64,000 bases of DNA from contig OZ005695.1 of the NCBI GenBank assembly GCA_963930775.1, forward strand, positions 3,038,001 through 3,102,000. Direction: 5' to 3'. The position numbers were made by a program, and so were the translations under genes. Origin of the DNA: Cliona cf. orientalis. Its lineage: Eukaryota; Porifera; Demospongiae; Clionaida; Clionaidae. This document shows positions 5,736-61,129 of the stretch, piece by piece (positions within the stretch are counted from its first letter, which is position 1; the number at the start of each line of letters is the position of its first letter). Below the pieces are notes generated by a model. It saw only the letters and a list, made by a program, of their open reading frames with translations. It was not told the DNA's origin and searched no databases.

Positions 5736-6095
5736 ATGGGCACTGAAGCGGAGCAACTCAAAGCAAAACTCGAGAAACTAGAGAGAGCACTGACCCAACT
5801 CCAAACCCAGAAGGATGAGGAGATCCAGCAGCTGCGTGACGTAGCCGAAGAGGCTCTAAAGCTAGAGCAAGAGCGTAGTGCCAACTTGGAGCGGGAGCTC
5901 AAAAGCGCTGCGCTGGAGGCTGAACTCGACAGGCACAAAGCTCTGGACGCACTCCGAGCAGAGCATCAGAGAGCCATTGAGAGGGAGCAGAAGAGAAAAG
6001 GCGCGCTCATGACTGGATCAACGACCTCAAATCCGGGTTCGAGCTGGAAAAGAACACTCTCCAGGAGAAAATCTCCGTGCTCGAGGAAAAGCTGA
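5736..6095 (+). CDS. Coiled-coil leader frame of the LTR element
   Basis: A frame starting MGTEAEQLK, rich in Glu, Lys, Leu and Ala with heptad-like spacing for about 85 residues, typical of a coiled coil. It lies within the retrotransposon, just downstream of the inserted foldback, and overlaps the start of the long gag-pol frame in a different frame; overlapping frames are common in this family. Its role is not known; it may belong to the gag region. It is treated as part of the fossil element. Confidence 0.6.
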   Translation: MGTEAEQLKAKLEKLERALTQLQTQKDEEIQQLRDVAEEALKLEQERSANLERELKSAALEAELDRHKALDALRAEHQRAIEREQKRKGALMTGSTTSNPGSSWKRTLSRRKSPCSRKS

Positions 6096-9000
6096 AGACC
6101 CCCGAGTCAAAGTCTGCAGACCCCGCAGGTACTACTGCGCATGTGCCGCCGCCGCCGCCTGACGTCGGGTCGGGTGAAAGGTCAACGGAATCCAGCGGTG
6201 CTAGCGGGACTCCGCCTTCCGATCCTACTCCGCCCACAGACCCTGCCGCGCCTACGGACGCGTCGCGAGGAGCTACGGACCCAGCTACTGCCAGCGCTGG
6301 TGATGGTGGTGCTACAGTGACAGATGCTACTAGCAGTGATACACTTATGAAATCAATGACTGAACTTATTAAGGCACAGGTGCAAGCTATGACCAAGGCT
6401 GCTTCTGTTCAGAGCCTTCCACCATTGGAAAGGTATACTGGTGAAGGAAGTCAAGCCGAAGATGACGGCATTGACAGATGGTTAGAACAGTTCGAGGAGA
6501 GAGCCCACTTAGCCGAGTGGTCAGATGAAGTCAAGCTGTATCAGTTGAAGGTGCACCTCGACAAAACTGCCTCACACGTGTTTAGGATGTTCTCCGCCGA
6601 TGAGAAGTCTGGCTACAAGAAAGCCGCAGACGCTCTCCGCAAAAGATTCCGTCCTGTAGACATAGAGGAATTGCGAGGGCTGGAGTTTCATCGCAAGGTC
6701 CAAGAGAACGAGTCTGTGGAGCAACTTGGACTTGAACTACAGCGTCTAGGCAGGAAAGCCTTCCCCTCCACAGATGGCAAGGATTTTGATCGCATGCTCA
6801 AGGGTCGCTTCTTCCAGGCCCTACTGACGAAGTGGCAGAGGAAGCTTGGCGCCCCCAAGACTTCCGAGACTTTTCAAGAACTTTACGATCGGGCGAGAAC
6901 ACTAGAGCAACACGAGAAACAGTATAATGCTGCTTCAGTAACAGTCCATGGTGAGAAGAAGAGCGAGAAACCTGCACAGCCGAAACAAACCAGATTCGCC
7001 AAGCCCCCTCATAGCAAGGAGCAACCTGCTTCGAGTCCGAATGCAAAGCAGAAGGATGACTCAGAAGCTCGAGCAGAACGAAGCCCTTCAGCTTCTGGAG
7101 GATACAGTCTACGAGCTTACTGTCACAGGTGTGGTCACAAAGGTCACCTTGCTCATAATTGCCGAAATCCTCGACTGAAGCATGAGGCCCCAGGTCGTAG
7201 TGACAATTCAAAAGCAGCAGCCGTTAAGACAATCGAAGCAGAGAGTGAGTTCACGGAGGCCCAGCTAGAAGAAATGCTAGCCCGGTGCAGGCTTCGTAAC
7301 GAACGTGAACATCTCGGAGATGCGTATGCGAACACTTGCACAGTCACAACCGAGTCTCAGGAGAGTAACCCAGTCGTGGGACCCACGCTATTTCTCGACC
7401 TAGAGATCGAAGGGATTCCAGTGGAGGCAGTCGTGGATTGCGGATCTCCAGCGACAATTATCTCCCGGAGGATGCTACACGAGATTGCGAGGAACCTCCG
7501 CCGCACAGGCAAGCCACTTCCAGAAATGAGTAAGCCCTCAATTAAAGTGTATGGTAAAGATGGGAAGAGAGGTGGGCATGAGCTTGTGTGTACTGCCCAG
7601 CTTGAGGTTAATATCCAAGCTGATGGGAAGAGAGCCTGTGTACCTGTGATTGTACAACCGGATAGTGAGCAGGGATGCTTATTGGGTACTAATGCTACTT
7701 CCTTGCTAGGACTCCAGTTTTTGAGAGCAAATAACAAGCCTTTACGCATGGGTACTGAATCAAAAGAGAGTGTCACTCGCGTTCGCTTGGTGAGAACCAT
7801 ATCTGTCCCGAGCCAAGCTAGTAAGATTGTCAAAGCCGAGATTGAAAGTATTAATAGAAAGGGTGAGGATTGCATCTTTGAGCCAGATATGAATGTAGTG
7901 GCGTCGAGTGGCCTGAGTATTCCTGAAACGGTGTTGACAATTGGCGAGAAGGGAAGAGTGTATATTCCATTGCAAAACATGCAAGACACTAGAGTGAAGC
8001 TTTCTAGAGGAGCTGAACTTGGCGTTATTGAGCCTTTTGTAGCCGTGTCTCCCAGTGACCATGCAACTCGCATGAGTGAGGAGAGTCAGCTAGTCGAGAG
8101 CAGTTGTGCTAAAGTCATGGTTGATAAGAAGTTTGACGATGAGCGTAACCGAAAGTTGTTGGGAGCCCTTAAGCTGAATCAGGGTGATCTCACGAACAAG
8201 CAGTTTAATAGCCTCAAAACACTTATGTTAGGAGCATCAGATGTTTTTGCTCTTGATAATTCTGAGCTTGGTTGCACCAATCTAGTCAGGCACACCATAG
8301 ACACTGGTGATAGTCAGCCGATAAAACAACAGCCCTACCGCACTCCGATGATTTATCGTGAGCAGATGGCAGAAATGATAGAGGATATGCAAGCACAGGG
8401 GATAGTACAGCCATCCTCAAGCCCCTGGGCAAGCCCAGTAGTCCTCGTGCCGAAGAAGGATGGTACAGCTAGATTCTGCATCGATTACAGGCGCTTGAAT
8501 GCGGTTTCGAGGAAGGATGTTTATCCATTGCCACGGATTGAAGATATTTTGTCCACTTTAGGAGAAGCCAGATATTTCACGACTCTAGATTTAGCCACTG
8601 GATTTTGGCACATTGAGCTTGACGAGTCTTCTAGACCTAAGTCAGCTTTCACCACGCACAAAAGACTCTACGAGTTCGTTCGCATGCCTTTTGGATTATG
8701 CAACGCTCCTGCTACATTCCAAAGGTTAATGCAGGTGGTGTTAGCAGGGCTAGAATGGAGCAGTTGTTTTGTATACATCGATGATATTTTGGTGGCATCG
8801 AAGACTTTCGACGAGCATTTGGTTCATCTCAAAGAAGTTTTTAGCCGACTCAGGAGAGCAGAATTGCGCCTGAAGCCCAAAAAGTGTTCCTTTCTTTGTG
8901 ATCAGGTCGTTTATTTGGGCCATGTCATATCCAAGGAAGGCATAGCTCCAGACCCAGCCAAAGTTCAAAAGGTTCGAGACTTCCCAGTGCCTACCGATGT

Positions 9001-11074
9001 CAGCAAGCTTCGACAGTTTTTGGGACTAGCGTCTTATTATAGGAGATTTGTTCCAGCCTTTGCTAAGATAGCGGCACCTTTGCACTCACTGACTAAGAAG
9101 AACTCGCCTTTGTGCTGGACGAGCGCATGCGACAATGCCTTCTGTGAGCTAAAGGAATTACTGTGTGATGCTCCCGTGTTAGCCTATCCACGTTTTGGCC
9201 CGAGCGAGGAGTTTGTGATCGAGACTGACGCTAGCACAGTTGATTTAGGAGCAGTGCTTGCACAGAAGCAACCTGACGGTACTGTGCATCCCATTGCCTA
9301 TGCGTCACGCTCTCTACAGCCTGCAGAACGGAACTATGGGATATCCGAGTTAGAAACCTTGGGACTGGTATGGGCTGTCAAACACTTCCGTCCGTACATC
9401 CTCGGTTATCCATGTACTGTGTACACAGACCATGCAGCCTGTCTATCTCTCCTCAGTTCCCGCAATCCATCCACCAAACTTGCAAGATGGGCACTGACTA
9501 TACAGGAAATGAACCTCACTATCAGACATCGATCTGGAAAGAAAAATGCCAATGCCGATGCGTTGTCGAGGAATCCGACAATCGAAGAAACCACAGTGTT
9601 ATCAGTCACTACTGAACACTCAGACGATTCGTGTGATGACACTTCGCCCCCAGAAGTGCAACGACAGTTTGACGACATCAAACGAGAACAACGAAGTGAT
9701 TCTGATCTCTTACCTCTCATTGAGTACCTAGAAACTGGTAATCTCCCTCCCGAGGAGCAGACTTCTAAGAAGATAGTGGCCGAGAGTCCGAAGTTCGACC
9801 TGATCGACGGAGTTCTGTACTTCGAGTATCCGAGCTCTCCCCACCAATGGTGCATTGTTGTTCCGAAGCACCTGCAGCAGACGATGTTGGAGGAAGCGCA
9901 CTCAGGTCAATTTGCCGGTCACTTTTCAGAGAAGAAAGTCTACGACCGTCTCCGCCGCTACTACTGGTGGAAGGGAATTCGCTCCGATGTTCGTCCACAC
10001 TGCCGAGTGTGTCTCACTTGTGTGACCAGGAAGGGTGGACGGAAGCCTACACGACCCCCACTACACCCTATCCCGGTAGGCGGACCCTTTCATCGTCTTG
10101 GGGTAGACGTACTCCAACTTCCATTGACAAGGAACGGTAATCGATATGTTGTAGTATTTGCCGACTACTTAACCAAGTGGATCGAAGCATTTCCAGTTCC
10201 AGACCAGACTGCAGAAACCATAGCGAAGCTGTTAGTTGAGAAGATTGTTTGTGTTCATGGAGTACCGGAACAGTTACTCTCTGACCGTGGAGCTAACTTT
10301 TTATCAGACTTAGTTCTCGAAGTATGTTCCCTCCTCGGTATAGAAAAGTTGAATACGTCTGGCTACCATCCTCAGACCGATGGTCTTGTCGAGAAATTTA
10401 ATTCCACTCTCATCAGTATGATCTCCAAGAGCTCCACCAGGAGTGATGACTGGGACGAACGACTGCCGTTTCTACTTTTCGCCTATAGAGTATCTGCCCA
10501 AGAGAGTACTAAAGAGTCCCCCTTCTACCTTCTATTTGGCAGAAATCCGCGTCTTCCTACGGAAACTACCCTAACTCAGCCGAGATCTATTTACACTATC
10601 GACCTTGAAGACTACAAAACAGCACTTGTTTCACATCTTGGAAGTGCTTGGGAAGCTGCAAAAGCTAACATTCAGTCCGCCCAGAAGAAACAAAAGCTCT
10701 ATTACGACCAAAAATCAAAGGAGACGTCTTTTAATGTCGGAGATCGTGTACTCTTGTACATGCCGAACGAAGTAAAAGGAAAGGACTGGAAATTGAGTCG
10801 ACCATTTCACGGCCCTTATCGTATCATCAATTTAACTGATTGTAACGCTGAAGTCCAACTTGTCGATGGTCAGGAAGAACCAATATTTGTATCACTAGAT
10901 CGGATCCGGCCATGCCCTAGTGAACTAAGCGATGATGTATGTTGGACAGGTTGCGGCAAGAAACGTTCTAAGCGACAAAAACCACGGAAACAGTCGAGCC
11001 AAGTTAAAGATAAAGCTCCTGTTCGTACTATCGGACCAGTTACGAGGTCCATGACCCGCAATGCAAGTCAGTAA
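6077..11074 (+). CDS. Gag-pol polyprotein of Ty3/Gypsy element
   Basis: A continuous frame of about 1665 residues. Visible domains in order: Pro/Asp-rich start, gag-type helical region with retrotrans_gag-like sequence, CCHC knuckle (CHRCGHKGHLAHNC), aspartic protease (VVDCGSPATI), reverse transcriptase with YIDD, RNase H (ETDAS), integrase zinc region and DDE core (GVDVL, DRGANF, HPQTDGLVE). No chromodomain was recognised at the end. The length and order fit Ty3/Gypsy. The element looks whole. No envelope gene was seen. Confidence 0.93.
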   Translation: MLEEKLKTPESKSADPAGTTAHVPPPPPDVGSGERSTESSGASGTPPSDPTPPTDPAAPTDASRGATDPATASAGDGGATVTDATSSDTLMKSMTELIKAQVQAMTKAASVQSLPPLERYTGEGSQAEDDGIDRWLEQFEERAHLAEWSDEVKLYQLKVHLDKTASHVFRMFSADEKSGYKKAADALRKRFRPVDIEELRGLEFHRKVQENESVEQLGLELQRLGRKAFPSTDGKDFDRMLKGRFFQALLTKWQRKLGAPKTSETFQELYDRARTLEQHEKQYNAASVTVHGEKKSEKPAQPKQTRFAKPPHSKEQPASSPNAKQKDDSEARAERSPSASGGYSLRAYCHRCGHKGHLAHNCRNPRLKHEAPGRSDNSKAAAVKTIEAESEFTEAQLEEMLARCRLRNEREHLGDAYANTCTVTTESQESNPVVGPTLFLDLEIEGIPVEAVVDCGSPATIISRRMLHEIARNLRRTGKPLPEMSKPSIKVYGKDGKRGGHELVCTAQLEVNIQADGKRACVPVIVQPDSEQGCLLGTNATSLLGLQFLRANNKPLRMGTESKESVTRVRLVRTISVPSQASKIVKAEIESINRKGEDCIFEPDMNVVASSGLSIPETVLTIGEKGRVYIPLQNMQDTRVKLSRGAELGVIEPFVAVSPSDHATRMSEESQLVESSCAKVMVDKKFDDERNRKLLGALKLNQGDLTNKQFNSLKTLMLGASDVFALDNSELGCTNLVRHTIDTGDSQPIKQQPYRTPMIYREQMAEMIEDMQAQGIVQPSSSPWASPVVLVPKKDGTARFCIDYRRLNAVSRKDVYPLPRIEDILSTLGEARYFTTLDLATGFWHIELDESSRPKSAFTTHKRLYEFVRMPFGLCNAPATFQRLMQVVLAGLEWSSCFVYIDDILVASKTFDEHLVHLKEVFSRLRRAELRLKPKKCSFLCDQVVYLGHVISKEGIAPDPAKVQKVRDFPVPTDVSKLRQFLGLASYYRRFVPAFAKIAAPLHSLTKKNSPLCWTSACDNAFCELKELLCDAPVLAYPRFGPSEEFVIETDASTVDLGAVLAQKQPDGTVHPIAYASRSLQPAERNYGISELETLGLVWAVKHFRPYILGYPCTVYTDHAACLSLLSSRNPSTKLARWALTIQEMNLTIRHRSGKKNANADALSRNPTIEETTVLSVTTEHSDDSCDDTSPPEVQRQFDDIKREQRSDSDLLPLIEYLETGNLPPEEQTSKKIVAESPKFDLIDGVLYFEYPSSPHQWCIVVPKHLQQTMLEEAHSGQFAGHFSEKKVYDRLRRYYWWKGIRSDVRPHCRVCLTCVTRKGGRKPTRPPLHPIPVGGPFHRLGVDVLQLPLTRNGNRYVVVFADYLTKWIEAFPVPDQTAETIAKLLVEKIVCVHGVPEQLLSDRGANFLSDLVLEVCSLLGIEKLNTSGYHPQTDGLVEKFNSTLISMISKSSTRSDDWDERLPFLLFAYRVSAQESTKESPFYLLFGRNPRLPTETTLTQPRSIYTIDLEDYKTALVSHLGSAWEAAKANIQSAQKKQKLYYDQKSKETSFNVGDRVLLYMPNEVKGKDWKLSRPFHGPYRIINLTDCNAEVQLVDGQEEPIFVSLDRIRPCPSELSDDVCWTGCGKKRSKRQKPRKQSSQVKDKAPVRTIGPVTRSMTRNASQ

Positions 11075-20965: not shown

Positions 20966-21595
20966 GCCAAGTCATAGTTCCGTTCTATATTTAGCTTAGA
21001 TTCATTACGAAATAGTGACGTAAATGGTCGGTTATGTGCGCATGCGTACTTTTCTGGCGGGAATTTGTAATCAGCTGCTAGGTACGTTGCCATAAATCCC
21101 TGGCAACCGTGCTGTAAGTACTATATATCCCACTAGCCTCGTACCCTATGGAACGCCATAGTGGACAAAATTCATGTTTGTACAATCGCATCGATGTTTC
21201 CATACATCTCGATCACTGATGTTCATGTATCGATCATCGATATCGATGTTTCGATCATCGATATCAATGTTTCGATCACTGATGTTCATGTATCGATCAT
21301 CGATGTCGATGTTTCGATCCATCTTCGGAGGTCTGGGGTCAGAATGCGCGCGCATGACATGACACACCCTAGTCTCGCGCGCCACACCCCCCAAGCCCTT
21401 GTTCGTGCATGTGCGATATATACGCGGTACGCGGTTAGTCGCGCCAGCCCCTCCTACGAAGTTGGAAACATAGACACTAGTGATAGCGATAGCAAACGTA
21501 TATCACAGGAGCCAACATCCACATCAATAGAAGAGATCGAATCATAGCTATCCAAGATCGAAACGTCGACATCGATGATCGATACATGAACATCA

Positions 21596-24391
21596 GTGAT
21601 CGAAACATCTATCTATGACCAAGAGATACTCCCTACAAACTACAACATATATCGCAGGGACAGACCCTCACGTGAAGGTGGAGTACTGATTGCCATCAAA
21701 GACACCATCCCTGCCTCAGTTATTCCTTCCCACCTGACTAACAATGCTCCAGAAATCATAACAGTTATGTTAAATCTTCGCAAATCCACTATCCTCAGTT
21801 GTGTATATCTTCCACCCTGTCCGAGCGACTCCCTCATGACTAACACAATTTCAAGCCTGACACAAGTCATCCAATCAAACCCATCAACTGACACCATAAT
21901 CGTCGGTGACTTCAACTTACCAGATATCCAATGGGACACACTCTCCTCCGCCTCCTCCTCATCAAATGCCTTCTGTGACTTTGTCTTTGACAACTCACTG
22001 ACCCAATTAATTGACCAACCAACACATATTAAAGGCAATATCCTTGACCTAATACTCTGTAACTCATGCGACTGTGTCACTAACATAATTTTGGCCTCTG
22101 ATAACAACTGGATATCCTCGGATCATTTTGCAGTTACTTTCCACCTTTCCCAACTCATCCACCCAACTCCAACTACAACTCCCAAATATGTATTTGACTT
22201 CCCCAAAGCCAATTACAATGGCATTCTGTCATATTTGTTCGACTTCGACTACTCCTCATGCTTACACAGTCAGGATGTTGACTCCATATGGGACATAATA
22301 AAGAATTCTATCTACACTGCGATGAATACCTTCATACCCAAGGTTCGACTTAGACGTCACCAGTTTCCCTGTTGGTATACACCCGAACTGAGACACCTCT
22401 CAAAATGCCTGCAATCCTCTAAAAAAAGGTTCTCTAAACACCCCACAACTCACCTCCATCTCAAAATAAACAATCTGGAATTGGAATACCGCAACAAAAT
22501 CCTACAGGCTAAATCCAGCTATGAATCACACCTAGTTCATTCATTTGCTGGGTCACACAATGCCAGAATATATGACTACATTCGCTCCTTAAGCAAGAAA
22601 AGTACCATCCCTTCTACTGTATCTCTTGATAACTGCAGTGCAACCTTGGACTCAGGAAAGGCTGAACTCTTCAATACTTTCTTTCATTCAGTCTTTACTA
22701 GAAGCTCTTTCTCTCTACCAAATATGAGTTCTCTTCCCCTGCCTTCCTCTTGCATTTGTTCTTTAACCTTCTCTGACACGGAGGTATTTGAAGCCATTTC
22801 ATCACTTGATCCTACAAAATCCAGTGGATGTGACGGCATTGGCCCCAAACTATTAAAACACTGTGCCTTAGCTCTTTATGAGCCCTTACATCATCTCTTT
22901 TCAGTAAGTCTATCCAAGCACTCCATTCCTTACGAGTGGAAATGCCACTCAATAACCCCAATCTTTAAATCAGGAGATAAATCCCAGGTCAAAAACTATC
23001 GACCCATATCATTGCTATGCATAGTGTCTAAAGTTCTTGAACACCTCATCTACAGCAAAGTCTGCAAATTCATTACTGACAACAATATTCTCTACCACCA
23101 CCAATTTGGTTTTCGACAGCACCACTCCACGACTCAGCAGCTACTAATTTTTCTAAGTAACATCCTCGGTGCTCTTAACAACTGCTCCCGATGTGACATT
23201 GTCTACCTCGACTTCAAAAAAGCATTCGATAGTGTTCCACACCAAGAACTGCTGCTGAAATTGTGGGAGGTTGGTGTAGTGGGAAGCCTGTGGAGATGGT
23301 TCCGTGAATACCTAACCAACAGATATCAGTGTGTATGCATTAATAATTGTAACTCTTCAACTCTGCCAGTAATCTCAGGTGTTCCCCAGGGAAGTCTGCT
23401 TGGTCCTCTCCTCTTTCTTATATACATTAATGATTTACCATCCTCTTTGAACCACTCTGACACTTTTCTTTTCGCTGATGATACCAAATGTCTCCGACCA
23501 GTATGCTCCCCTCATGACTGTTCTCTATTGCAATCTGATCTTGATGCTTTATCCTCTTGGAGTACCCACTGGAAACTGATGTTCAACGAGACTAAGTGTT
23601 TTCTCCTTTCTATTGATTCTGGACATACATCTACTGATCAAAGTGACCATCAATATCACATCAATGGACTATCCATCTCCTCAAGTAGCCAGCAGAAAGA
23701 TCTCGGCATCATAATATCCTCTGACCTATCATGGTCTGACCACATATCCAAAATAGTATCAAATGCTTACAAAATACTAGGCCTGCTTCGCCGATCATTC
23801 TGTTCTCCAAACAATACTACCACCAAGAAAAGACTGTACATCTCTCTTGTTAGATCGCAGCTTCTCTATGGGTCCCAAATGTGGAGACCCCTGCAGCGGA
23901 AAGATATGAACAAAATCGAATCAGTACAACATCGAGCCACAAAGTTCATACTCAATGACTATACGTCCGACTATAGATCAAGATTAATCGACCTCCATAT
24001 TTTACCGCTCTCAATGCTGCTTGAACTCTGTGATATCTGTTTTTTTGTAAAGTCGCTAAAACTCACTTCATCCAACATCTCATTCAACATCTTAAACTAC
24101 ACCTCATTCAGCCAGAATTCAACCAGATCTAAAAGCTACAGCAAACTAGTACAGCCCCTTATCAAGAACAACAGAGACAAGCAATTTTATTTCAACAGAT
24201 TGCCTTATCTATGGAACTCATTGCCACCGATTGATCTAAGTCTCTCCTTCACTACCATTAAAAGTAAACTAATGGTCATCTTTTGGGATACATTCATTTC
24301 AAAGTTCAATCCTAATAATTATTGCACATACTTCTTCTCATGTCCTTGCCCTAGGTGTTTTTCCCATCCAAAGTCATGCTTCTCTATATAA
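21596..24391 (+). CDS. LINE endonuclease (partial) and reverse transcriptase
   Basis: 931 codons open to a TAA. The first codons come from the host repeat. LINE sequence begins around residue 5. The exonuclease-endonuclease-phosphatase domain lacks its N-terminal part with the first catalytic Asn and Glu; GDFNLPD (residues 104-110) and SDHF (175-178) are present. The reverse transcriptase spans about 455-700 with YLDFKKAFDSVPH (537-549), GVPQGSLLGP (595-604) and FADD (626-629). The C-terminal region matches the usual CR1/Jockey extension. No RNase H was recognised. It has no stop or frameshift over its length but cannot encode a full endonuclease. Confidence 0.88.
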   Translation: MIETSIYDQEILPTNYNIYRRDRPSREGGVLIAIKDTIPASVIPSHLTNNAPEIITVMLNLRKSTILSCVYLPPCPSDSLMTNTISSLTQVIQSNPSTDTIIVGDFNLPDIQWDTLSSASSSSNAFCDFVFDNSLTQLIDQPTHIKGNILDLILCNSCDCVTNIILASDNNWISSDHFAVTFHLSQLIHPTPTTTPKYVFDFPKANYNGILSYLFDFDYSSCLHSQDVDSIWDIIKNSIYTAMNTFIPKVRLRRHQFPCWYTPELRHLSKCLQSSKKRFSKHPTTHLHLKINNLELEYRNKILQAKSSYESHLVHSFAGSHNARIYDYIRSLSKKSTIPSTVSLDNCSATLDSGKAELFNTFFHSVFTRSSFSLPNMSSLPLPSSCICSLTFSDTEVFEAISSLDPTKSSGCDGIGPKLLKHCALALYEPLHHLFSVSLSKHSIPYEWKCHSITPIFKSGDKSQVKNYRPISLLCIVSKVLEHLIYSKVCKFITDNNILYHHQFGFRQHHSTTQQLLIFLSNILGALNNCSRCDIVYLDFKKAFDSVPHQELLLKLWEVGVVGSLWRWFREYLTNRYQCVCINNCNSSTLPVISGVPQGSLLGPLLFLIYINDLPSSLNHSDTFLFADDTKCLRPVCSPHDCSLLQSDLDALSSWSTHWKLMFNETKCFLLSIDSGHTSTDQSDHQYHINGLSISSSSQQKDLGIIISSDLSWSDHISKIVSNAYKILGLLRRSFCSPNNTTTKKRLYISLVRSQLLYGSQMWRPLQRKDMNKIESVQHRATKFILNDYTSDYRSRLIDLHILPLSMLLELCDICFFVKSLKLTSSNISFNILNYTSFSQNSTRSKSYSKLVQPLIKNNRDKQFYFNRLPYLWNSLPPIDLSLSFTTIKSKLMVIFWDTFISKFNPNNYCTYFFSCPCPRCFSHPKSCFSI

Positions 24392-48669: not shown

Positions 48670-51600
48670 TCAGACGCTAGTCTGTGTATTATCTCTACCT
48701 GTGAAATATTTTCCCTTCGGAGTAACTTTTTTCATATATATATGTTCACTTGGCACTGAATCCGAGCCACTATGCAAACTTTTATTAGCAGTCGGTTGAC
48801 CAGCCTCCAGGTTGCCTTTTTTCAATGAAACATTGTCACTCTCTAGTGAACTGGACTGTTTGTTGTCAGGTTGAGTTCCACCTCCCAGTTTCAGTGAATC
48901 ATCCTTTCTCTCCAGTGAGCTAGGCAGTTTGCTGTCTAGCTCACTTTGCTTCAATGAAGCATCATCACTCTCCAATGAGCCAGACAATTTGTTGTCAGGT
49001 TGAAGTCCACCTCCTAGCTTGCTTTGTTTCAAAGAATCATCCTCTGTCTCCATTGAGCCAGACAGTTTGTTGTCAGACAAAGCCCCATCTTCTAGCTTGC
49101 TTTGTTTCAACAAAGCAATCTCGCTTTCAATTGAGCCAAATGGTTTGTAATTGGACAGAGCATGGTTTTCCAGGTCGCTTTCAGATTGAGCCTCAGTACT
49201 ATCTTCATTGCTTTGTTGTTTCAATACATTTTGATGTGCAGGGTTAGAATTCAGCCAGCGTCCTTGAGCAGACTTCATTGTTGAGCTAACAGATTCATCA
49301 TATAAATCAGCAGAGTCTTGCACATTTTCAATCTCTGATTTCTCAGATAATTTATCATCGTCAGATAACTCCTATACGTATAACAATGCAATATAATTAT
49401 CGCAGAATATTAATCCCGCAATTATGTCCTCCCCTCATCATGCGTAGCCCCCTTGCAACTTTTATCTCGAGTACCTTTTTGTCTCGCATATAAGCCTCCC
49501 TTCTAACTGTAACATTAGGGTCCAAGAGCCAATTAATGAATGCACTGGTGCACAGAACCCTCACCCCTACATGGATTTATGACTCATGCATGTGTATAGC
49601 ATGGCTCACTGTGTATGGGGTAAAAACATACCCTGCACCTGAACAGGGTTCTGGTACTATTGAGTCAGTGTATGATCTAGCAGTAGAGGGAAGGTTCCTG
49701 GTTATGTTACTACAGTGGTTTATGATAATAGCCAGTAATATAGTAATATTTTATACAAGTATGTTTGATGTCACAATCACTGGATAATGTGGCAGATATG
49801 CATATATGAGCTATTTAATAACGACGTACTCAGAGTAAATTTAAAGTTAAAACGGCATCATCTCATTAACAGTGCCTGGTTAGTACAGTGGGCAAGTGTT
49901 TATGAGAGCTGTATGAACTCCATACCACAAAGAAGTTCGCAAAGGTGACGTTCTCACTCTTCTCAAGTGTCGAATCTATCACCAGACTATTGACAGGTGT
50001 GACAAAGAACAGACCCTGCCTCTCGCTTCGCTTTAGACTCTGTGGCCTGCTCAGGAGGCCTCTTAAAATGTACAGCACTTTGTGCTATTCATTCAAGAAT
50101 GCATCTCTATGGCCACCCTCGTTTGTGCTCATGGACACTACAATTCTGACGACACATGAGCCTTCTGAACTTGTAGCAAAGTGTATCTTTTGTGCCCTCA
50201 AGGATGACACGGACTATAAACAAACATGTCACTCTGAAAATATTTTTCATTATATAATACAACAAGTATGTTTGATGTTATAATCACAGGATAACTTGAT
50301 GAGGCTAATAATATTATGCATGAGATACTAGTAGTATGCTAGGAGAAAATCTAATGTAATCTCATAGCTAGCAGCATGTCAAGATAGCCTGTTAGAATAG
50401 TGATAGTGCGCACATGCAGATGAGAGCTGCATGAACTTTGAACCTATTATTGCATAGACCATACCACCAACAGCAGCTACTCAAATCTCATCACTAAGGA
50501 GGCGATGTTCTCACTCTTTTCAAGCATCGAATCTACCACCACACTATTGATAGGTGTGTGTATGCCCCATTGGTCGATTAGTAATTTCTTATCAGAAAGA
50601 GTCCCAATACATAATGCGGGTGGGCGGGTATTACCCTAATTACTGCAAACCACAGATATACAAACACTAGAGAGCCATCCAGTCACTTAAAACTCTAATA
50701 TTACTGACCAGGCAGCTGAAAAATGTTTGAAACCTGCTGATGAGTATTGTCAGAAAAACTACTGTAATAGTTCAGCTTGCGGGATATCATGCTTGAATCT
50801 TAAAACTCAAACAGAACTTGACAACAATGGATCACATGACAAGATACACCCCTTTATTGCGTCATTGGCATACAGTAGTTGATAAATTGTACCTAAAGAA
50901 TTGATGCGCGCAGCTGATGAGAAACTAGCAATCATTGAATTTGGACCTCACGTCATACGCAAGCGAACACTCGCCCCCATGATGAAATATATCACACTAG
51001 TTATAGCAACTAACCATGACTCCTTGATGCTCCACTTCCATATTACTGGACTGTGACAGTGAGGATGTGTCATTATCACTAAGTAATTCTTTAACTTTGA
51101 GTCGGGGATTACTTCCTGGATCACGCCCTGAATAATCATGTATAATCACTGATTTAGTATTTTTAGTAACAATTATACAGATACATAGCACCAAATACAA
51201 TCTTGCTAGTGCCACCAAAGTAATACAGTGGAACTTCTCATAACGGACCCTCCCAGGAGCGACCACCCACTATATAACGGACAATCGCTATGGAACGGAT
51301 TGAATTTGCCATAGACTTAGTACATTACGAACCTCCGAGGAGCAGACAACCTCTCAATTCACTATAACGGACGGATTGTTCGGATCCGATTGAATCTCTC
51401 AGTATCATTTTACTTCTAAATAGCGGACGGCCAGCAAGCCACACCCCTTTTCGCGGCCAGTGACGTAATTGCTGGCGCCATGATCCTGGCCAGGCCTTCC
51501 CCCTTCGTAGGAGGGGCGCTATCTTGAAGAAGTAGACTCATATCCAGCTCATATCCTGCTTTCCTGTTGATTCTTTCTCCAGTCACCTCAAGAACTATCT

Positions 51601-54600
51601 ATGACTCTACATAGGCAAGCTCTAGATCTTGGCATAGCCTCGTTCCCAGACCCAGAGAAGCTGCTACCAACATTGAACTTACTAACCTTTTAGGTTTGCT
51701 TCCGACTAAATAGAAGTTTTTCACGGCCTAGCTCGTTCTCCAGGTCCAGTCTGCCCGCGCCCGCGTGATCGATGTGGTGGCGCGCAGCGGCAGCGCTTAA
51801 ATCCTGTCACATGACTTCACCATGGTAACACATTATGAGCATGCGCATAATATAACAAAATGGCGAATAAGACACGCCCAATCGTACAATGCGCTGACCA
51901 AACCCACCATTTAGGCCACTATTGGTTGAAAATTAGTTTCTCATCCCCCGCCTGCATGGAATTTTGCCCCCGCTTCAATCTCGTCATTATGCCATTATAT
52001 GCTACTACGCATGCGCAGATCTGTCGCGTGTGGATAGAGTGGGTAAAGGTCGTCGGGCAAAAAAGGGGATAGACTATATCTGACCGCGCTAGTATTGCTT
52101 CTTTGTGTGTACATTTTGTTATTTTAAGGATCAAGAAGTGTTTACATAGCACATTTCCTGGAATGCACTAATGTAAATAATGGCATAATGGTAATGTACC
52201 GCCCGCCCGCATACAATTCTGGGAAAGTCCCTGATGAGAAACTATTATTCAACAAATAGTGGCCTTAGTAACGGTGTCATGATAACACAAAACTAGTGTG
52301 ACACTGCACTGCGCGCTACAAAATAGAGTGGATTTATATGTGAACTAAGGTGAGCGGTCCAGAGAGTCTTGAGTTAGCCCTGGTAATGAAAAAGAAAGAA
52401 AGATTGACAATTGGCTATTTTTTACATGGCTGGTTCAGGCATACCTGATCGTTTCCATGGATGTGTGGGGGCTTAATAGATAGATATTCTGGCGTAGATG
52501 ATGAATATGAGAGTTAAAAACCTTAAAATTTAAGTTGCACTGAGTTATTCAAGTTTTTGTAATGTATTACATATATGGCAATATCCGGGCCATCCTTACT
52601 TATAGAGTCGGTATTATTATTGTGTATATAAAGTGTCTCCGCTTCTGTAAAAGGACAACTACCTCCATATAAAGGACAAACGGCCTGCTCCCAATGTGTC
52701 CGTTATTCGGAAGTTCTACTGTAATGGAATATTATGCTCTTCATATTTGAAAAGTAACCGTAGTTACTACTAATTTCAGCGTCGCTGGAGTGCGGCTACT
52801 AGTCGAGGGCGGCTTTAACTATACTTTAATAGTAATCCTCTGTGTGTTATTTGTTACATGATAGACTATTTTTTTAGGGCTGCTTTTGCATTAGAGACAT
52901 GATCAAAGGATAAGCAAAAGAACCAAAGCCAAGTGCATCATCTACCATCCTCTTGCCTCACACTATCATTCATGGCCTAGGATGCGGCTTCACCTGTTGA
53001 ATAAATTGACTGCATGCTTCTTTAGTAACCAGGGGCGGATCTAGGGGGGGGGGTTGCTGGGATTGCAACCCCCCTAAACGATTTTGAGCAGCCCCTCCCA
53101 CTTATATACAAGGCCTACTATAGCTTGGCACAGTATCTGCCACTGTATGGTTAGCAACAGACAAGCTGTGTAGTACATAATTGGCCTCAAGCCAACAGGT
53201 AGTGCACGGTGGTTAGTGGTACACCCTGAACATGGCTTCAGCTATGAATAATCTACTGTAGACCACAAGAGTCAGCTGTGGTGCTAGGCGTGGTAAAGCT
53301 CTATACCTACAGTCATATGCATGCTACAGTGTTACAGTACCTTACTAGGGTCACAGTCACTCTCTGGGGCGAGATATGATGATTAAAAGTGGGCGTGGCT
53401 CATTAAAAGGGGGCGTGGTCGCAAAACATTTCGCTCGCTTCGTGCGCAATTATACCTACAACCCCACCATACTAAAAATCCTAGATCCGCCCCTGAGTAC
53501 CTAGTTTGTAGTCCTCTTCTAGAAGCCTAACCACACCAGTAGCAGCATATAATGATGATTCTGAACACTCAGATGGAAAGATTGGTAATTGAGGTGATGG
53601 TTGTTCTGAAGGAGGGGAAGAAGTATTAATTGTATTCCTATTGGATTCTCCAGTATCTGTTCGCATGTTAATCACCAGATCTTTCACATTTTCTGCATAA
53701 CTTTTGTAGCCAGCTTTTTCAAACACTTTGATCAGATTGTTATAAGTGGCAGCAGAACCACGCTTTTGTTTCCACATCTCTAATGCTTTTCTCCTATATA
53801 AATGAAGGGAAAATACATTAAAATTCATATCCAATTATATTATGAGAAACGTTGTTATGCATGGTCCAATAACATGCACTGTCATGGTTCTTGAAGTGGG
53901 ATCCAGGCCACCCCTTCAAGTCATCCCCTCTCTGTTGTGCACAGACGTAGCTACAAAGGCATGCAAATATCATTCACCAACATTTAACTTACGTTTGTAA
54001 TTTTAAATCTGTAGGATACTGTGTGTTGATAGCCGCAATATCAGCTGGTGTCAGACCCAGGTGGTCGGCAATAGATCCCTTCCAGTCACACATTTTATCA
54101 GCTATTTGTCCAAGGTGTAGAGAAACTCCATCATTATTAATATCCAATACTTGATCCCCAAGTACTGGATACACAAAATATAAATTTGGTGAATAACATA
54201 CCAGTGGTATAAATTTAAAATAATAAAGTTTTGTTTCTAGGTAGTAGGCAACTAGGGTCAGATAAGTCTTAACTTAAGTGTGCAACCATTGATCTGCCTT
54301 GCAGGATCAGCTACAGTATAATATTATTTTAGATATGAGCTCTTTGATCATAAAGGCACAAGTTAGAATTAAAGTAATAATAATAGTGGGCAGACAATAA
54401 TAATAGTCATACAACTATGCCAGTGGTCCCAACCATAATACAGTAATTATTGTTGCACCTAGTTGCTCAACCCATGATCTGCTTTTTGATTCAGGCTGAG
54501 CATCATCAACAATAATTTTCAAAAGACAACGAGTTATTAAACCTTGGCGCATGTGCGAGGGGTACGGTAGTCGTTCTGTGTGTGAGTGTGTGTGACATGT

Positions 54601-57600
54601 GTGTCTGTCTGTTACCATGCCAGCTGCTACTGGTTTATACGATGCAAACAAGGTGCCATTAGGCTTCTTACGGCATTTTCAAGGTGTGTATTGTGTGGAT
54701 TTTGTTGAAAACGCTTCATTCAATAGTTTTTGGCGACATTTGCTGACCACCATGGCCTTCTTTGCTTCTTGACGAGCTCTCGATCGATGAAAGAGACAGT
54801 GATGGCTTCATTTCGATGTTAGTAGTGTGTAGCTCTAGCGATAGCTCATATAACTCATCATAACTCAGTGGCTATCAAGTATCATGACTACGCTTCTTGG
54901 CTTTACTTTACTAGATCTGCTGATCCACGTAGTACTATTACATAATACTGTGCAATCTGTATAATTATTAGTGCATTCTTGTAACTACATAGCTATTGCT
55001 ATTGCACTGAGGGTTTTGTACTCTATAGTGCTTCATTGCCATCTGATAATGGCAAGCTTGAGACTAATTTTATCATTTAACTAATTCATTTCAGATTGCC
55101 CAATACGTGTGTACAGTAGCAAGAAACATGCACATATTATACATAGCGGCCTCGTACCTTGGTTGTTTTTGTGATTAGGAAAACCGGGTGTCTGACACAT
55201 ATTAATAAAACAGCTTACATACATATCAGAGGTGCACAGACAATCTCAATCCTAAGGTCACTAGAACTATTATCCTGCTGTATACTATAGAGTATAATAA
55301 TATTATTATACAGATGCATGATCATAGTTACCTTGTTGACTTTCAGTCCATAATTTATAACCATCTGGTAAGTGACTGTCTTCACCTGTTATTTTGCAAT
55401 AAAGTGTATTTGTATCCCAGTCAATCTTAGCTGGATGTGGACGTCCTTTGCATTCAGATCGTGTGCAGTTGAAGGCAAAAACAAAATAATCACGGAATGA
55501 ACCATGAAATTTCATATTTATGTCCCTAATAATCCTCTTGATCCGTTTGAAAACTTTTTCACAGGTAACAGTAAATCTATCCCTCAGACTCGATTCATGA
55601 TCAGCCATTGCTGATTCAGGACAAAAGCAATGAACTTCAATATGAGTGGATCGAATCTTGAGGATAATACGAGCCACCCCAACACTAAAAGAAACTTGAT
55701 TTCTAAATACCCCCCTTTGATTAAGTTTCCAAGAAAACGATTTTATTTTATTATCCATGAGAGATTTTATAAGTATTCCAGAAATGGCTCTTGGACAAAA
55801 TCCATCTTTACATGTGATTGATATGGGTGGTGGTGCCTTGATTGAGCAATTTGAAATATTTGATCCTTGCTTCTCATCAGGAGCATGACAAAGCACACAT
55901 GGAAAAAAATATTTCTCTTCTCCATTTTGATCTTTGAAACAAACAGCTATTCCAAGATATTTAAGAATTTCTAGAGTCCACTGAAATGGAAGCTGTGAGT
56001 CAGAATAATTCTTTAAACTAATCGTTCTCATGGCTTCTATTGAGAATATGCCCCTTTTTTGAAGATCGTCAATTTCTCTTACACTGGCATGATCACTAAT
56101 AAACGTTTCTACTATCAGTTTAGTGATTGTATCAAACAAAAGATGAGGATCAATAATCACACTATCATTAAGTCCTTTGACAGGGAAATATCGTATTAGG
56201 CCAAGTCTATGGTGAATGAAAAGTAGTGCTTTATTGAAGTCTTCTTTGTTTGATATTCCACAGCTCTGTGCTACAGTACGACAGTCATAATAAGTCAAGA
56301 CTCGACTTGATTTATGCTTTGCTTGAAGGACAAGGCTGAAAACTAGCCAGGAGCAAGGGCATGGTATTGTGAATTCTTGTTGCCTTTCAATCATTCTTTG
56401 CAAGGCTGAACGGATCTTTTGAAAATCATAATCCTCTTCATCAAGATTGTTAACTGTAAACATAAGCTGATCACTACCCTCAGCACATTGAATCGAATCT
56501 TGCTGAAGTGATGCTTGCTTGACAATATCTTGAAGTTGCTTGTCGATCTCCTGGATCATATCATTAGCTGAGGACTCTGGCAGTTGATCTTTATAAGTAC
56601 CAATAAAAAATACTTTAGGCTTAATACGCTTATGGTCAACCTGCTCTAATTGAGGTCCAGTGCATTCTAAAGCTGCTATAGTGGCAAGAGTCTGAAGTAT
56701 CTCATCCTTTAAAGTGAAGGAAGACAAATAGGTTTTCTCAGTACCATTGGGATATTGATACCGTACAGTGTAAGGCTCATCGAGCTTACTGTTTAGAGGA
56801 AACGTAACAAAAAATGCAGAGGGTCCACAGACAAGGAGCGGTAAAAGTTCCTGAAATTCCAATTGACCTCCTGTGTTTGTCAGGTAGAGGGACCATGATG
56901 ACTCAAGGTGTTCACGAAGTGCATGCATGTGTCGCAATTCAATAGCACGTTTGAAGATATCCATAGGTCCTTCACGTAAGCTGAACTCTCTTAAGTACAA
57001 TGGGTTTGGCATTCCTGATGATGGTATATCATCATAGTGAGGATAAGTTATAGCTCCCTTAGCTACTTCTGGAATTGCTTGATGACTGTCAATTTTGCTT
57101 TCACTTTCTGTTTCATTTTCACTTTCTCCGTCACTTTCACCTGTAATAAGTATTACTGCAGACTGATAATTAACGGATCCAACTATTGGAGTAATTAAAT
57201 CTGGTATAGGCTTGGTTTTTCTTCCTTCGTCAGTGAGTGAAGCAATATGAGTTAGTACAGTGGTCATCATTAATTCAAGGGCTTCTTGATCATACTCTAA
57301 CTTTGTCCATTTCAAATTAGTTGTAGCTGCATCCATTGTACACACTTTCTTCACCTCCACTTTAATTACGTTCTCTAAAACACCAGTACTAGGTGAGATT
57401 GAGCCATGATCAGGAGGACCTTTGCCCATTAAGCGATCCATGAGAGAATTTTTTCCAGATCGTCCAGGACCAATAATTACACCGTGAACTACAGTGTGAC
57501 CGATTTCCTTCTCCTGTCTTACTAAGTCTTCCATTGTTTCTACAAAAGTTTTGTCAACTTCTGACTCATATTCTTTGTCCACATGAAGGTTCAAGCCAGT

Positions 57601-59676
57601 AAAAATGCCGACAAGAGCACAGACAAATAGAGACCCTGGTTCTCCTAAATCATTTCTAGAAATGTCTAATTCCCGTAATTTACGGCAATGACTCAAAAGA
57701 GATGATGCGAAAGTCTTAAGAAATTCAATGTTTTCTTTTGCACTACAAGTAAGTGATGCTTGCAAGAGCAATACCTCCAACTGCGCCAAAGAACCACATT
57801 CAACAGTATCTTGCAATGCTTCCAAACCAGAGAGTTTCAAAGGATTAAAAGACAAGTCTAGCTGAGTCAAACACTTCAAAAAGCATAGTGCTTTCATGGT
57901 GTACGAGGCTTCTCCAATCTTTTTGCCAATCTTATTATTACGGAGAGAAAGTTTTTCTAACGTCTGAAAGGCCGTCAATGCCTTGTTTGTTTTGTTGAAA
58001 AGGTCAGCTACTTTCTTTTTTGGTAGGTTAAATTTGTTACTCAAATCTAAAGATTTAACTTCAATTTTGTTATCCTTTGTCAGTATTTTTGCTAAGTCAC
58101 AAAGCTGCTGTTCTTTGAAATTACAATCCTTGAAGTTTAGCTCTAGTTTGGAATCAGATTCTATCTTTCTCACTTGTTCAATAACATACAGAATAGCTTC
58201 ACAATCATGAGTAGTTTTGGGATCACCGAAATGTTTGGAGTCTGATAGGGTACTAAGTACTTTGATAGCTTTTTTATCGACAATAGACATTTTGGCTTCG
58301 AATGCACAGTGACAAATTAGACATCGAAGATGATTAAATTCTGATAATGATTGAATGGCACGCTCCAGCAGTGCTAAATTACTTCTATTCTGTCCACAAA
58401 TTCCGAACAGAAATCTCCAAAAGTTGGTCGATGATTTCTTTGCACCCAATGTCAGAATCCACTGATCTTGCAAGCACGTATCGGAACTGTGACACTGGTT
58501 TGCAACATGGAGGGCAGCAAGATATTCTTGAATTACTGGATGAAGAAAATGACACTTTGCTTCATTTATGATCTCAACTAATCCAAATATTACTAACATA
58601 TCAAACTTAGACAATTGTGATAAACTGATCTGCTGAGATTTTTGAACTGTTTGGAAAGCAAGCTGACACAGATTCCACCATGAACTTCTCAATTCCTCCG
58701 GCAGGCTTTCAACATTGGGTAGGTGTGAAATGCGCCCATATTTATCTACTTTCTTGATGCTATGAAGAACAACGTTCAAAATCATCTTGGTGCAGAGCTC
58801 TGTCATGGTGGTTAAAAGTTTTCGTTTTCGAGATTCAGTGCGCCACAAATGACAAAGAGTGGCACAGTTCAAGGGAATACGACACATGCTCTTTATTAGT
58901 GGATTGCAGTCCACTGTCTCCAAAAGGTGATCTGACTCTTGTTGATCGTCGATAAATTCAAGCCGAATGTATTGCCTGATACTTTTATCATCAAAGCCAT
59001 GTATGCTCAATAATCTGTCAAAGCATCCATTTTTGCATAGCCAATCAGAATACGATGGCCTGGAGGTCACAATAATTGAAGCAAGCTTAAAAGTATGACC
59101 AAATAAAAGATTGCACAAGAAGGACTTTGAACATTCTGGTGCATGAAGTTCATTCCATCCATCAGCGATAACAAGTACACCTTCTCCATTAGTCTTCTTT
59201 ATACTGTCAGCTATGGAAGCTGATAAACTTTCAGTCCCTTGCAAAATTTCTATCAATTCAGCAAGTGAGCTGGTGGCTGCTATTCTCTTTTCATGAAGAT
59301 GTAATAAGAGAAGCACTTTAAATTCTTGAAAAAGATTTTCCTTCGCCCATTCTTCCGAGATTGTTGAACAGAAAGTAGTTTTACCAATTCCAGCGCCACC
59401 CTCAATAAGCACCTTTCTAACTACCTGTTCTCTCTCTTTCTTAAATATGTCACTGTAAGTCACTAGTTGAGTGTCTGAACATGTACTAGTGGGTTTGTGT
59501 TCTCCTCTTTTACTAGTGGGCTTGTGTTCTCCTTTCTTCATAACAAATTCTAACTTGACCGGCTCACTTGAGTAATGAGGCGGGTATTGTTTCTGGTCAT
59601 GACTATTAGTAGAGTATTTAGTCTTGATAGTGGTCAAAAATTGATCCATTCTTGTTTGGTTAAAATAATTTCTAAC
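48670..59676 (-). CDS. NACHT-LRR-Roc-COR-Death fusion receptor
   Basis: Exons in coding order: 59676 (possible acceptor) or ATG 59649 to 55332, then 54164-53993, 53793-53501, 51127-51015 and 49371-48670. From ATG 59649 they total 5598 bp, exactly 1866 codons, and every junction is GT-AG and in phase. Order: NACHT with Walker A GGAGIGKTT (84-92), Walker B VLVIADGWNEL (158-168) and VTSRP (194-198); LRRs at about 500-690 (LDLSN, LEKLSLRNN, LTQLDLSFN, LRELDISRN); Roc-like GTPase with G1 GPGRSGKN (727-734), G3 NTGGQ (925-929) and G4 TYKD (1018-1021); COR-like part (FIHHRLGLIRYFP, SVIIDPHLLFDTITKL); Cys/His-rich stretch at about 1395-1415; Death domain at about 1455-1540 (DWKGSIADHLGL, RRKALEMWKQK-type helix); then an acidic Ser-rich tail with repeated SLKQSKL/DNKLSGS units. 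The Roc G1 has Asn for Ser/Thr and G3 has Asn for Asp. Known roles of the parts: ligand-induced assembly and death-fold signalling. An N-terminal exon may exist. No exact family match is known to me. Confidence 0.82.
49750..50560 (+). repeat. Repeat family B, two copies in tandem
   Basis: Copy 1 starts TATACAAGTATGTTTGATGT-like near 49752 and includes TCGAATCTATCACCAGACTATTG-type and CTCGCTTCGCTTTAGACTC words up to about 50255. Copy 2 starts AACAAGTATGTTTGATG near 50257 and is shorter. A third copy is at 59828-60345. They lie in the last intron of the NACHT gene. Confidence 0.7.
51226..52721. mobile_element. TA-flanked element with CAGTGGAACTTC ends, carrying nested repeats
   Basis: Starts CAGTGGAACTTCTCATAACGG and ends CGGAAGTTCTACTG with TA on both sides, similar to Tc1/mariner-pogo ends. 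Words such as TAACGGAC recur near the left. About 1.5 kb, but no transposase; much of it is a family C copy (51780-52500). It lies in an intron of the NACHT gene. Confidence 0.7.
51913..52268. mobile_element. Miniature element nested in a family C repeat
   Basis: Left AGGCCACTATTGGTTGAAAA and right ATTCAACAAATAGTGGCCT are inverted, with inner TAGTTTCTCATC and GATGAGAAACTA also inverted. It interrupts the family C copy that is continuous at 46160-46740. About 355 bp, no coding capacity; GCCCGCCCGC near the right end. Confidence 0.78.
53031..53494. mobile_element. hAT-like miniature element abutting a splice donor
   Basis: Starts AGGGGCGGATCTAGG and ends CTAGATCCGCCCCT; the interior matches 43987-44392. 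Its right border lies six bases past the GT donor at the end of the NACHT gene's 53793-53501 exon. The flanks TAGTAACC and GAGTACCT are only partly alike, fitting an aged 8 bp duplication. Confidence 0.8.
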
Positions 59677-59744
59677 CTGTGAGAATTTACATTACAACCA
59701 CCGATCATTGCCTTACTTTTTTTCTATACACATAATTATACAAG

Positions 59745-59827
59745 TAGCCTTGTATCCAGGCCATCCCATGTTTTTCAACGTCGCGTGCAACGTTGAAAAA
59801 CATGGGATGGCCTGGATACAAGGCTAT
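59745..59827. mobile_element. Hairpin miniature element, TAGCCTTG ends
   Basis: An 83 bp element made of two perfectly complementary arms of about 37 bp and a short loop around CGCGTGC. It starts TAGCCTTGTATCCAGGCC. TATACAAG stands on both sides (59737-59744 and 59828-59835), an exact 8 bp duplication. It inserted in the start of repeat family B copy 3, just upstream of the NACHT gene on that gene's 5' side. Confidence 0.9.
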
Positions 59828-60345: not shown

Positions 60346-61129
60346 AATATTCTAGTTTTGTTGTGTATAGTATAACAATTATATATCAGCCGGTGGTAAA
60401 ATACGAGCTGGCGCTCTTTATTAGACAGTGAGAAGTGGCTTTTGGGTGCAGACTCTGTTCATACCAGCGCTATCTGAGATCACGCCAAAGCAAACTAGCA
60501 TGTGCATGCAATGAATCTGTTGAAAAGAGAACATGCCAGAGAGAGTGGCAGTGATCCCTGTTCCTATGCACCCATTGCAAGCCCTACACAGGATTTCTGA
60601 CTTTGAAAAAGACCAGCTACGACACAGATTTGACATAATTTATTGCCTACTTCACAGCCATCGAAGAAATTTCATTTAATACAACTGTGCAAGTTGGAAA
60701 CTCGTCACAGAGTTGCCATTGGAAGTACGTACACAAATGAAATTGCTGGAAAAACCTTCACAGACTATGTAGCTGAGTCGCGCCATCAGCAGCTATTTCT
60801 AAAGCTCTAGCACACCAAGTTTGTCTCACTGTTGATGGACAGCTCGAGGGAATACCTACATCGGACACGCCCACCTAGTACCTTATGAAGTCTATTGCAC
60901 ATGATCGAGCTTCCGGAGTCTACTGCGCATGCTCGAACTTTATTCTTCTAATGTCATTAATTTTGTGATTGTGAGTAGCAAGAGATTAAAATTCAAAGAA
61001 TAAAGGCCTCTATGAAGAGGCATGGCCATGGGTGATATTGCCAGGGCACGCGGGGTACGTGCTCTATGAGCTCTAGTTCTACACAGTAACTCTTTATACA
61101 CAATACTTTTTGCCCCGCGCGCATGTGCA
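60346..61129. other. No gene recognised; possible 5' region of NACHT gene
   Basis: If the acceptor at 59676 is used, an N-terminal exon of the minus-strand NACHT gene would be expected in this direction, but no NLR N-terminal domain (Death, CARD) was recognised here. Only short frames are present. Confidence 0.4.

Follow-up and report, generated by a model that had tools for sequence, protein, structure and literature searches.

A conserved protein family predicted to join an NLR core to a Roc-COR module and a Death domain

Can an NLR and a Roco protein be parts of one polypeptide, and would both of its nucleotide-binding modules then act as switches? NLRs, which are STAND ATPases, and Roco proteins, which are GTPases, are large nucleotide switches; both count among the main families of this kind in cell death and innate immunity, and they are usually studied separately. 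The question is raised by a stretch of 64,000 nucleotides from the sponge Cliona cf. orientalis (GenBank assembly GCA_963930775.1, contig OZ005695.1, positions 3,038,001 to 3,102,000 of the forward strand), hereafter the window. A preliminary description of the window had claimed that 48670..59676 encodes a single chain composed of an NLR core (NACHT and leucine-rich repeats, LRR), a Roc-COR module and a Death domain, and this is borne out by Pfam matches, predicted folds and a conserved gene family. The protein represents a real, conserved family of hybrid receptors, the architecture of which is secure as predicted from sequence and models.

Domain order and the gene family

The predicted protein of about 1865 residues reads NACHT, helical domains, LRR, Roc, COR, Death and a low-complexity tail. 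The part from NACHT to COR lies in one minus-strand frame, 59691-55306, of 1461 codons without a stop, and the large exon is taken to start at 59676, because the acceptor-like TTCTCACAG, read from the window sequence, ends at 59677; all exon joins of the gene are predicted. The features of this exon are as follows.

55332..59676, minus strand: large exon within the open frame 59691-55306, start Met at 59649, acceptor and donor read from the sequence
58948..59415, minus strand: NACHT, residues 93-248 of the window protein P0001, Walker A GGAGIGKTT (Pfam, NLRP3 alignment, fold)
57592..58179, minus strand: LRR region, about residues 505-700 (Pfam LRR_6, E 9.9e-10; AlphaFold2 models)
56392..57495, minus strand: Roc with a variable insert, about residues 733-1100 (fold; Pfam Roc in 15/38 relatives)
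55897..56358, minus strand: COR-A, residues 1112-1265 (Pfam below cut-off; fold)
55357..55881, minus strand: COR-B-like region, about residues 1271-1445 (position in the Roco-matching model)

The NACHT domain was recognized by Pfam with E 8.9e-18, together with a weak NLRC4_HD2 match, and in a phmmer search of PDB sequences residues 85-396 were aligned with NLRP3 (E 2.1e-13), so that FLHPVIQEYLAA of the window protein pairs with FIHMTFQEFFAA. As expected of an NLR, the LRR is C-terminal to NACHT according to Pfam, the model and the PDB matches. The AlphaFold2 model of residues 15-720 (pLDDT 85.4, pTM 0.85) found 91 PDB matches at E<=0.001 with NLRP3, NOD2 and NLRC4 at the top; the remainder of the best 50 of these 91 were other NLRP entries or oocyte lattice/subcortical maternal complex (SCMC) structures, which presumably contain NLRPs. 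The whole-chain TM-scores among the same best 50 are modest (0.28-0.51 by query length), as would be expected when multi-domain chains in different states are compared. In the 120 aligned members (P0001 and P0003-P0121) Walker A Lys and Thr/Ser are kept in 118, with gaps in the other two, Walker B Asp in 119, the sensor Arg in 117 and the HD1 Pro in all 120; judged by sequence, the NACHT motifs are canonical.

The Roc-COR half was established mainly by its fold. Pfam placed COR-A on residues 1112-1265 with E 1.1e-7 and 32.3 bits, just under the cut-off of 35.3, and gave neither a Roc nor a COR-B match on the window protein. Among 38 relatives (one of which is the window piece) COR-A was found in all 38 and Roc in 15 at E<=0.1, the best at 1.3e-4. 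The AlphaFold2 model of residues 540-1461 (pLDDT 76.3, pTM 0.75, with low confidence in the large variable insert of Roc) returned 32 PDB matches at E<=0.001, all of them Roco proteins, i.e., LRRK1 (2.4e-16), LRRK2, the Roco protein of C. tepidum (7.7e-15 for its LRR-Roc-COR) and that of M. barkeri, to whose RocCOR the TM-score is 0.74 by target length. The suspicion that Roc is absent, raised by the missing Pfam match, was thus overruled by the fold and by Pfam Roc in relatives, and a Roc-COR tandem characteristic of Roco proteins is present. The expectation that Roc and COR models would match residues 720-1180 therefore held for the fold and for COR-A, and failed for Pfam Roc on the window protein itself. 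It had also been proposed that the LRR could serve both modules. It does adjoin Roc, yet by type it looks like the NLR's own, since the LRR-Roc-COR model weakly matches NLRC4, ribonuclease inhibitor and 3un9 through the LRR (E 0.005-0.025, ranks 35-50); 3un9 is listed in the PDB as an immune receptor, and we take it to be NLRX1.

The last part of the COR-B-like region (P0001 residues 1409-1432; minus strand, window about 55467-55396) contains a C-x4-C-x4-H...C pattern, kept in 111-118 of the 120 members and perhaps, by eye, a zinc site.

The C-terminal Death domain, which is also the hallmark of the DAPK1 group, is encoded by two further exons.

53993..54164, minus strand: exon with the first half of the Death domain (joins in frame; 30/30 copies)
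53501..53793, minus strand: exon with the second half of the Death domain and a linker (joins in frame; Pfam, copies)

In the predicted in-frame join with the large exon they give Pfam Death with E 9.9e-12 and 45.3 bits (cut-off 22.6). How general is this arrangement? Thirty near-full-length copies of the large exon were collected from the same genome (see below), and the first half of Death lies downstream on the same strand within 1.5 kb in 27 of them and in longer downstream sequence in L004, L005 and L013, that is in 30/30. In L012, L024 and L028, as well as in the database protein P0025, it shares one open frame with COR. The second half was found in 23/30 copies, then in L004, L005, L013, the window itself and, for L002, in L035; in L010 and L017 it was not found within the stretch examined. 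For the first junction, compatible donor and acceptor sites, with one or more phase-1 choices per copy, occur in 23 of the 28 copies evaluated (L015 and L028 excluded; none in L009, L010, L018, L021 and L023), and a phase-2 intron within the Death domain in 23 of 24, with L009 deviating. The splice-site script was permissive, so these counts are support and not proof. The segment 53025-53500, which abuts the donor predicted for the second Death exon, carries 21-base terminal inverted repeats 434 bases apart and resembles a small transposon that landed at the edge of the exon.

The gene model is completed by two predicted exons.

51015..51127, minus strand: predicted linker exon (75% identical, over 44 aa, to sequence downstream of copy L002; 3' end placed manually)
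48670..49371, minus strand: predicted last exon with a 233-aa low-complexity tail and stop (open frame; 53% identity over 199 aa downstream of copy L005)

Searches of the short flanks of the remaining copies gave no match to either. The outer limits proposed earlier agree with this model at both ends, i.e., with the acceptor-like end at 59677 and with the last exon resembling the stretch downstream of L005.

At E<=1e-3 the protein search produced 322 hits; the best 120, among them the window's own protein, were used. NACHT and COR-A are both precomputed in 115 of the 119 other listed hits (not in P0053, P0055, P0068 and P0082); seven of the 119 correspond to one of the 30 genome copies (>=98%) and 112 do not. 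The genome of the window (216.8 Mb in 149 contigs) was searched by tblastn, and as 32 of 911 candidates were scored, the copy number is a lower bound: at least 34 places, including at least 30 near-full-length ones spread over 11 contigs. Internal stops are lacking in 26 of these 30. The ratio of non-synonymous to synonymous changes (dN/dS) over the whole frame is 0.35, 0.44, 0.34, 0.21, 0.27 and 0.18 in six pairs, which at the sequence level is purifying selection over the frame; in the Roc insert it reaches 1.30 in one pair. The claim of one uninterrupted exon that is not a prediction artefact thus stands, on the stop-free 1461-codon frame, the 30 copies and the 115 of 119 listed hits.

Both domains are very abundant in the same genome. 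COR-A matches number 150 or more, with 150 of 290 candidates scored, and NACHT matches 104 or more, with 103 of 490 scored. On contig C14, at about 5.4 and 7.7 Mb, open frames of 2612 and 2443 aa hold two NACHT matches each, which suggests tandem-NACHT proteins.

The magnesium site of Roc and the probable origin of the fusion

Does the second module retain the features of a working GTPase? Three motifs of Roc were located by alignment.

57445..57471, minus strand: Roc P-loop GPGRSGKNS, Asn748 in place of Ser/Thr
56863..56883, minus strand: Roc G3 LTNTGGQ, Asn939 in place of Asp
56587..56601, minus strand: Roc G4 GTYKD, GTHKD in most members

The residue after GK in the P-loop, Ser or Thr in other GTPases, is Asn in 98 and Asp in 22 of the 120 aligned members, while Asp of G3 is replaced by Asn in all 120, so the canonical G1 and G3 of a working GTPase are found in none of them. 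PDB alignments place the P-loop Asn on Thr of GKT in the M. barkeri and C. tepidum Roco proteins. In Ras-like GTPases both changed positions hold Mg2+, and Ras S17N serves as a comparison for a locked or slow nucleotide binder. The rest of the site is kept: P-loop Gly and Lys in 120/120, G2 Thr in 119 with one Ser, G3 Gly and Gln in 120/120, and G4 Thr and Asp in 120/120; the residue following the changed P-loop position is Ser in 85 and Thr in 35. The 30 genome copies all carry GKN or GKD together with LTNTGGQ. The earlier view of two stacked nucleotide-binding switches stood for NACHT; as a whole it is unsupported as stated, because Roc is non-canonical at both Mg2+-ligand positions.

In a wider set of 294 Roc-COR proteins from the protein searches the P-loop and G3 letters are N+N in 204, D+N in 38, Q+N in one and S+D in 34, with 17 gapped at one or both positions, so that the pairing holds in 277 of 277 scoreable relatives. 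Does this reflect repeated co-variation? In a midpoint-rooted FastTree of 287 of the 294 proteins (seven short rows left out, a gap counted as a letter) a single change falls on G3 and 22 on the P-loop letter, and the Asp-at-G3 rows group together in a single clade of 35 leaves with support 0.99. As read from the trees, the two positions are therefore associated through one switch; since then G3 has been Asn throughout, while the P-loop has shifted mostly between Asn and Asp. Repeated independent co-variation is not supported, there being one change at G3. The NACHT-containing set is nested in the switched group as a clade of 151 leaves (support 0.805) in a 229-sequence tree rooted on the S+D group, and includes 32 leaves from a second search, mostly partial proteins.

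Both states occur in the window genome, where L041 and L043 have GKS with D, and L038, L039, L040 and L042 have GKN or GKD with N. An LRRK-type protein, L036 (Pfam LRR, Roc, COR-A, COR-B and kinase), has GKT and DFGGQ. At L037 two neighbouring LRRK-like frames were noted, one kinase-like by eye with G3 DFSGK, the other with an odd P-loop, GSPESGKHT.

Where did the NLR core come in? The NACHT-less relatives at ~37% identity include ankyrin-Roc-COR proteins, for instance L034, a 3022-aa frame of the window genome with a long ankyrin array, Roc (GKD, NTGGQ) and COR-A. Roc-COR-Death exists without NACHT, because Death is precomputed in five such relatives (P0285, P0287, P0289, P0291, P0293), and it occurs with S+D (P0285, P0289, P0291) and with the switched pair; Pfam detects Death at E<=0.1 in 8 of the 38 relatives. 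The simplest history is probably, to judge from these sequences, a fusion of an NLR core with a Roc-COR-Death protein in which Roc had switched before. A Death domain seemed by eye to end L034, P0161, P0163 and P0171 as well, and was not borne out, since Pfam finds none at E<=0.01; a profile comparison of the window-type Death with the ankyrin-type C-terminus, the latter lacking four of nine intended proteins, was too weak to establish a shared origin (probability 1.2%, P 0.045).

Known systems and possible mechanisms

The architecture had been described as new. Among the closest known proteins is DAPK1, the third Roco group, in which Roc-COR is followed by a C-terminal Death domain, as outlined in the Roco review (PMC6337361); the output end is thus the same, whereas DAPK1 has an N-terminal kinase and no LRR, and the window protein has NACHT-LRR and no kinase match. 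LRRK1, LRRK2 and the bacterial and archaeal Roco proteins share the LRR-Roc-COR order and fold but carry no NACHT or Death, and the LRRKs carry a kinase. NLRP3, NOD2 and NLRC4 share the NACHT-LRR fold and motifs, whereas the window protein has its effector at the C-terminus instead of the N-terminus and Roc-COR after the LRR. Animal Roc-COR joined to immune domains has been reported in sea anemone (LRR-Roc-COR-TIR and kinase-Roc-COR-Death-TIR) and Aplysia (TIR-Roc-COR), where the partner is TIR or a kinase and the proteins described contain no NACHT (PMC5094078, PMC9334734). The LRRs of bacterial GTPase-COR proteins have also been likened to those of NLRs (PMC8195603). The nearest precedent in the open-licence texts searched is a 2026 paper on NLRs of the sponge Dysidea avara, whose Figure 2 legend includes COR among the drawn domains (PMC12909245), and its main text has no whole-word match for Roc, Roco or GTPase; the combination may be drawn there, yet neither the full order, nor the family, nor the Roc site is described in that text. 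The searchable text of the Roco review has no match for NACHT, NLR or sponge (PMC6337361), nor that of a brown-algal ROCO paper for NACHT (PMC11378527), and that of PMC8075586 contains nothing relevant. Within the indexed text of open-licence PMC papers the order NACHT-LRR-Roc-COR-Death thus left a trace only as the COR abbreviation in one sponge-NLR figure legend; the combination is not wholly unseen.

What might such a protein do? It is about an even bet that it is a hybrid intracellular receptor in which an NLR is joined to a Roc-COR-Death relay, with Roc as a locked or slow nucleotide binder. The NACHT-LRR half would be an ordinary NLR, held closed by ADP until a trigger sensed by the LRR leads to opening and clustering. 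The Roc-COR half would be a dimerising relay with guanine nucleotide bound and no normal Mg2+-dependent hydrolysis cycle, and control would therefore rest mainly with the ATP switch; guanine recognition kept beside changed Mg2+ positions suggests tight or slow binding. Clustering would gather the C-terminal Death domains, seeding a death-fold platform that would signal cell death or inflammation, and as Death is the sole known signalling domain found, the output is likely death-fold recruitment. A bolder proposal, which we put forward tentatively, is that this is an undescribed large animal family in which an ATP-driven NLR switch was wired to a Roco module converted once to a guanine-nucleotide binder devoid of the Mg2+ site, with a C-terminal death-fold output and Roc reporting nucleotide state or locking dimers without hydrolysis; if true, these would be two-input (ATP and GTP) death receptors.

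Several observations weigh against the preferred reading of a hybrid receptor with a relay. Stops interrupt 4 of the 30 copies; for the window copy the dN/dS ratio approaches 1 in two regions, Roc G1-G2 (0.85 vs L002, 0.98 vs L003) and COR-B (0.92 vs L003), though on few synonymous changes. The WHD His of NACHT is kept in only 88 of the 120 members and the second Walker B acid is variable among them. The clade support of 0.805 for the NACHT set within the switched group falls to 0.42 in the larger midpoint-rooted tree.

Could Roc have become a scaffold that no longer binds nucleotide, so that Roc-COR merely dimerises and positions the Death domain? The loss of both Mg2+-ligand positions and the large variable insert with its low model confidence would fit, but the guanine-recognition Thr and Asp and the P-loop Lys, needless in a dead site, are kept in 120/120, which makes this unlikely. 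Two working switches, with Roc hydrolysing GTP via a rearranged Mg2+ site (ligands being, for example, the Asn/Asp of the P-loop, the Ser/Thr after it and the conserved Thr of G2) and gating the NACHT half, are likewise improbable: the invariant P-loop Lys, G3 Gly and Gln and G4 Asp, the G2 Thr/Ser, the Ser or Thr beside the changed P-loop position and the purifying selection on the frame speak for them, and the change of both ligand positions in every member, though S+D relatives exist, speaks against. The canonical form of the dual switch was marked down in particular, as the Mg2+ positions of Roc are non-canonical and paired across relatives. There is a slim chance that the protein restrains other death-fold receptors, as a decoy or brake, and is no activator; locked GTPases are often dominant negatives and the NLR repertoire of the genome is large, with its 104 or more NACHT matches, but the catalytic motifs of NACHT are kept. 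An artefact, i.e., neighbouring genes merged by assembly or transcripts that are never joined, might be suspected from the Death exons being separate from the large exon, and is extremely improbable, in effect ruled out, given the same order in 30 copies on 11 contigs and in database hits elsewhere, with the first half of Death downstream in each copy and in the same open frame in three.

On the preferred reading of an NLR joined to a Roc-COR-Death relay, the family matters in two respects. A natural NLR-Roco fusion that occurs in many copies, with purifying selection acting on it, says that the two families can work within one pathway. In turn, a natural Roc changed at both Mg2+ positions, beside Ser+Asp relatives (L041, L043) in the same genome, offers test material for the role of GTP hydrolysis in Roco proteins such as LRRK2 and DAPK1.

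Upstream sequence and neighbouring elements

No N-terminal effector domain of the kind present in vertebrate NLRs was found by Pfam in the large exon, nor did blastn of the 1.5 kb upstream against three close copies reveal a conserved coding stretch or effector exon. Besides the surroundings of the start codon, this comparison gave a 42-47 base piece common to the window (60375-60421, minus strand), L002 (1401-1446) and L003 (1396-1436) only. In L002 and L003 it precedes the large exon by about 100 bases, but in the window it lies about 730 bases before the start codon; its neighbour in L002 is TATAAAG, and it is perhaps a core promoter or a 5' untranslated exon. An inverted repeat of 40 bases, almost perfect and with a loop of 2 bases, is located at 59745-59826, about 100 bases upstream of the start codon.

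Elsewhere in the window two mobile elements were recognized on the plus strand. A 1697-codon frame at 5981-11074, with zinc knuckle, protease-like, reverse transcriptase, RNase H and integrase matches, is a long terminal repeat-type retroelement with an apparently intact frame, and a 933-codon frame at 21590-24391, with endonuclease and reverse transcriptase, is a non-LTR retroelement (LTR here standing for long terminal repeat).

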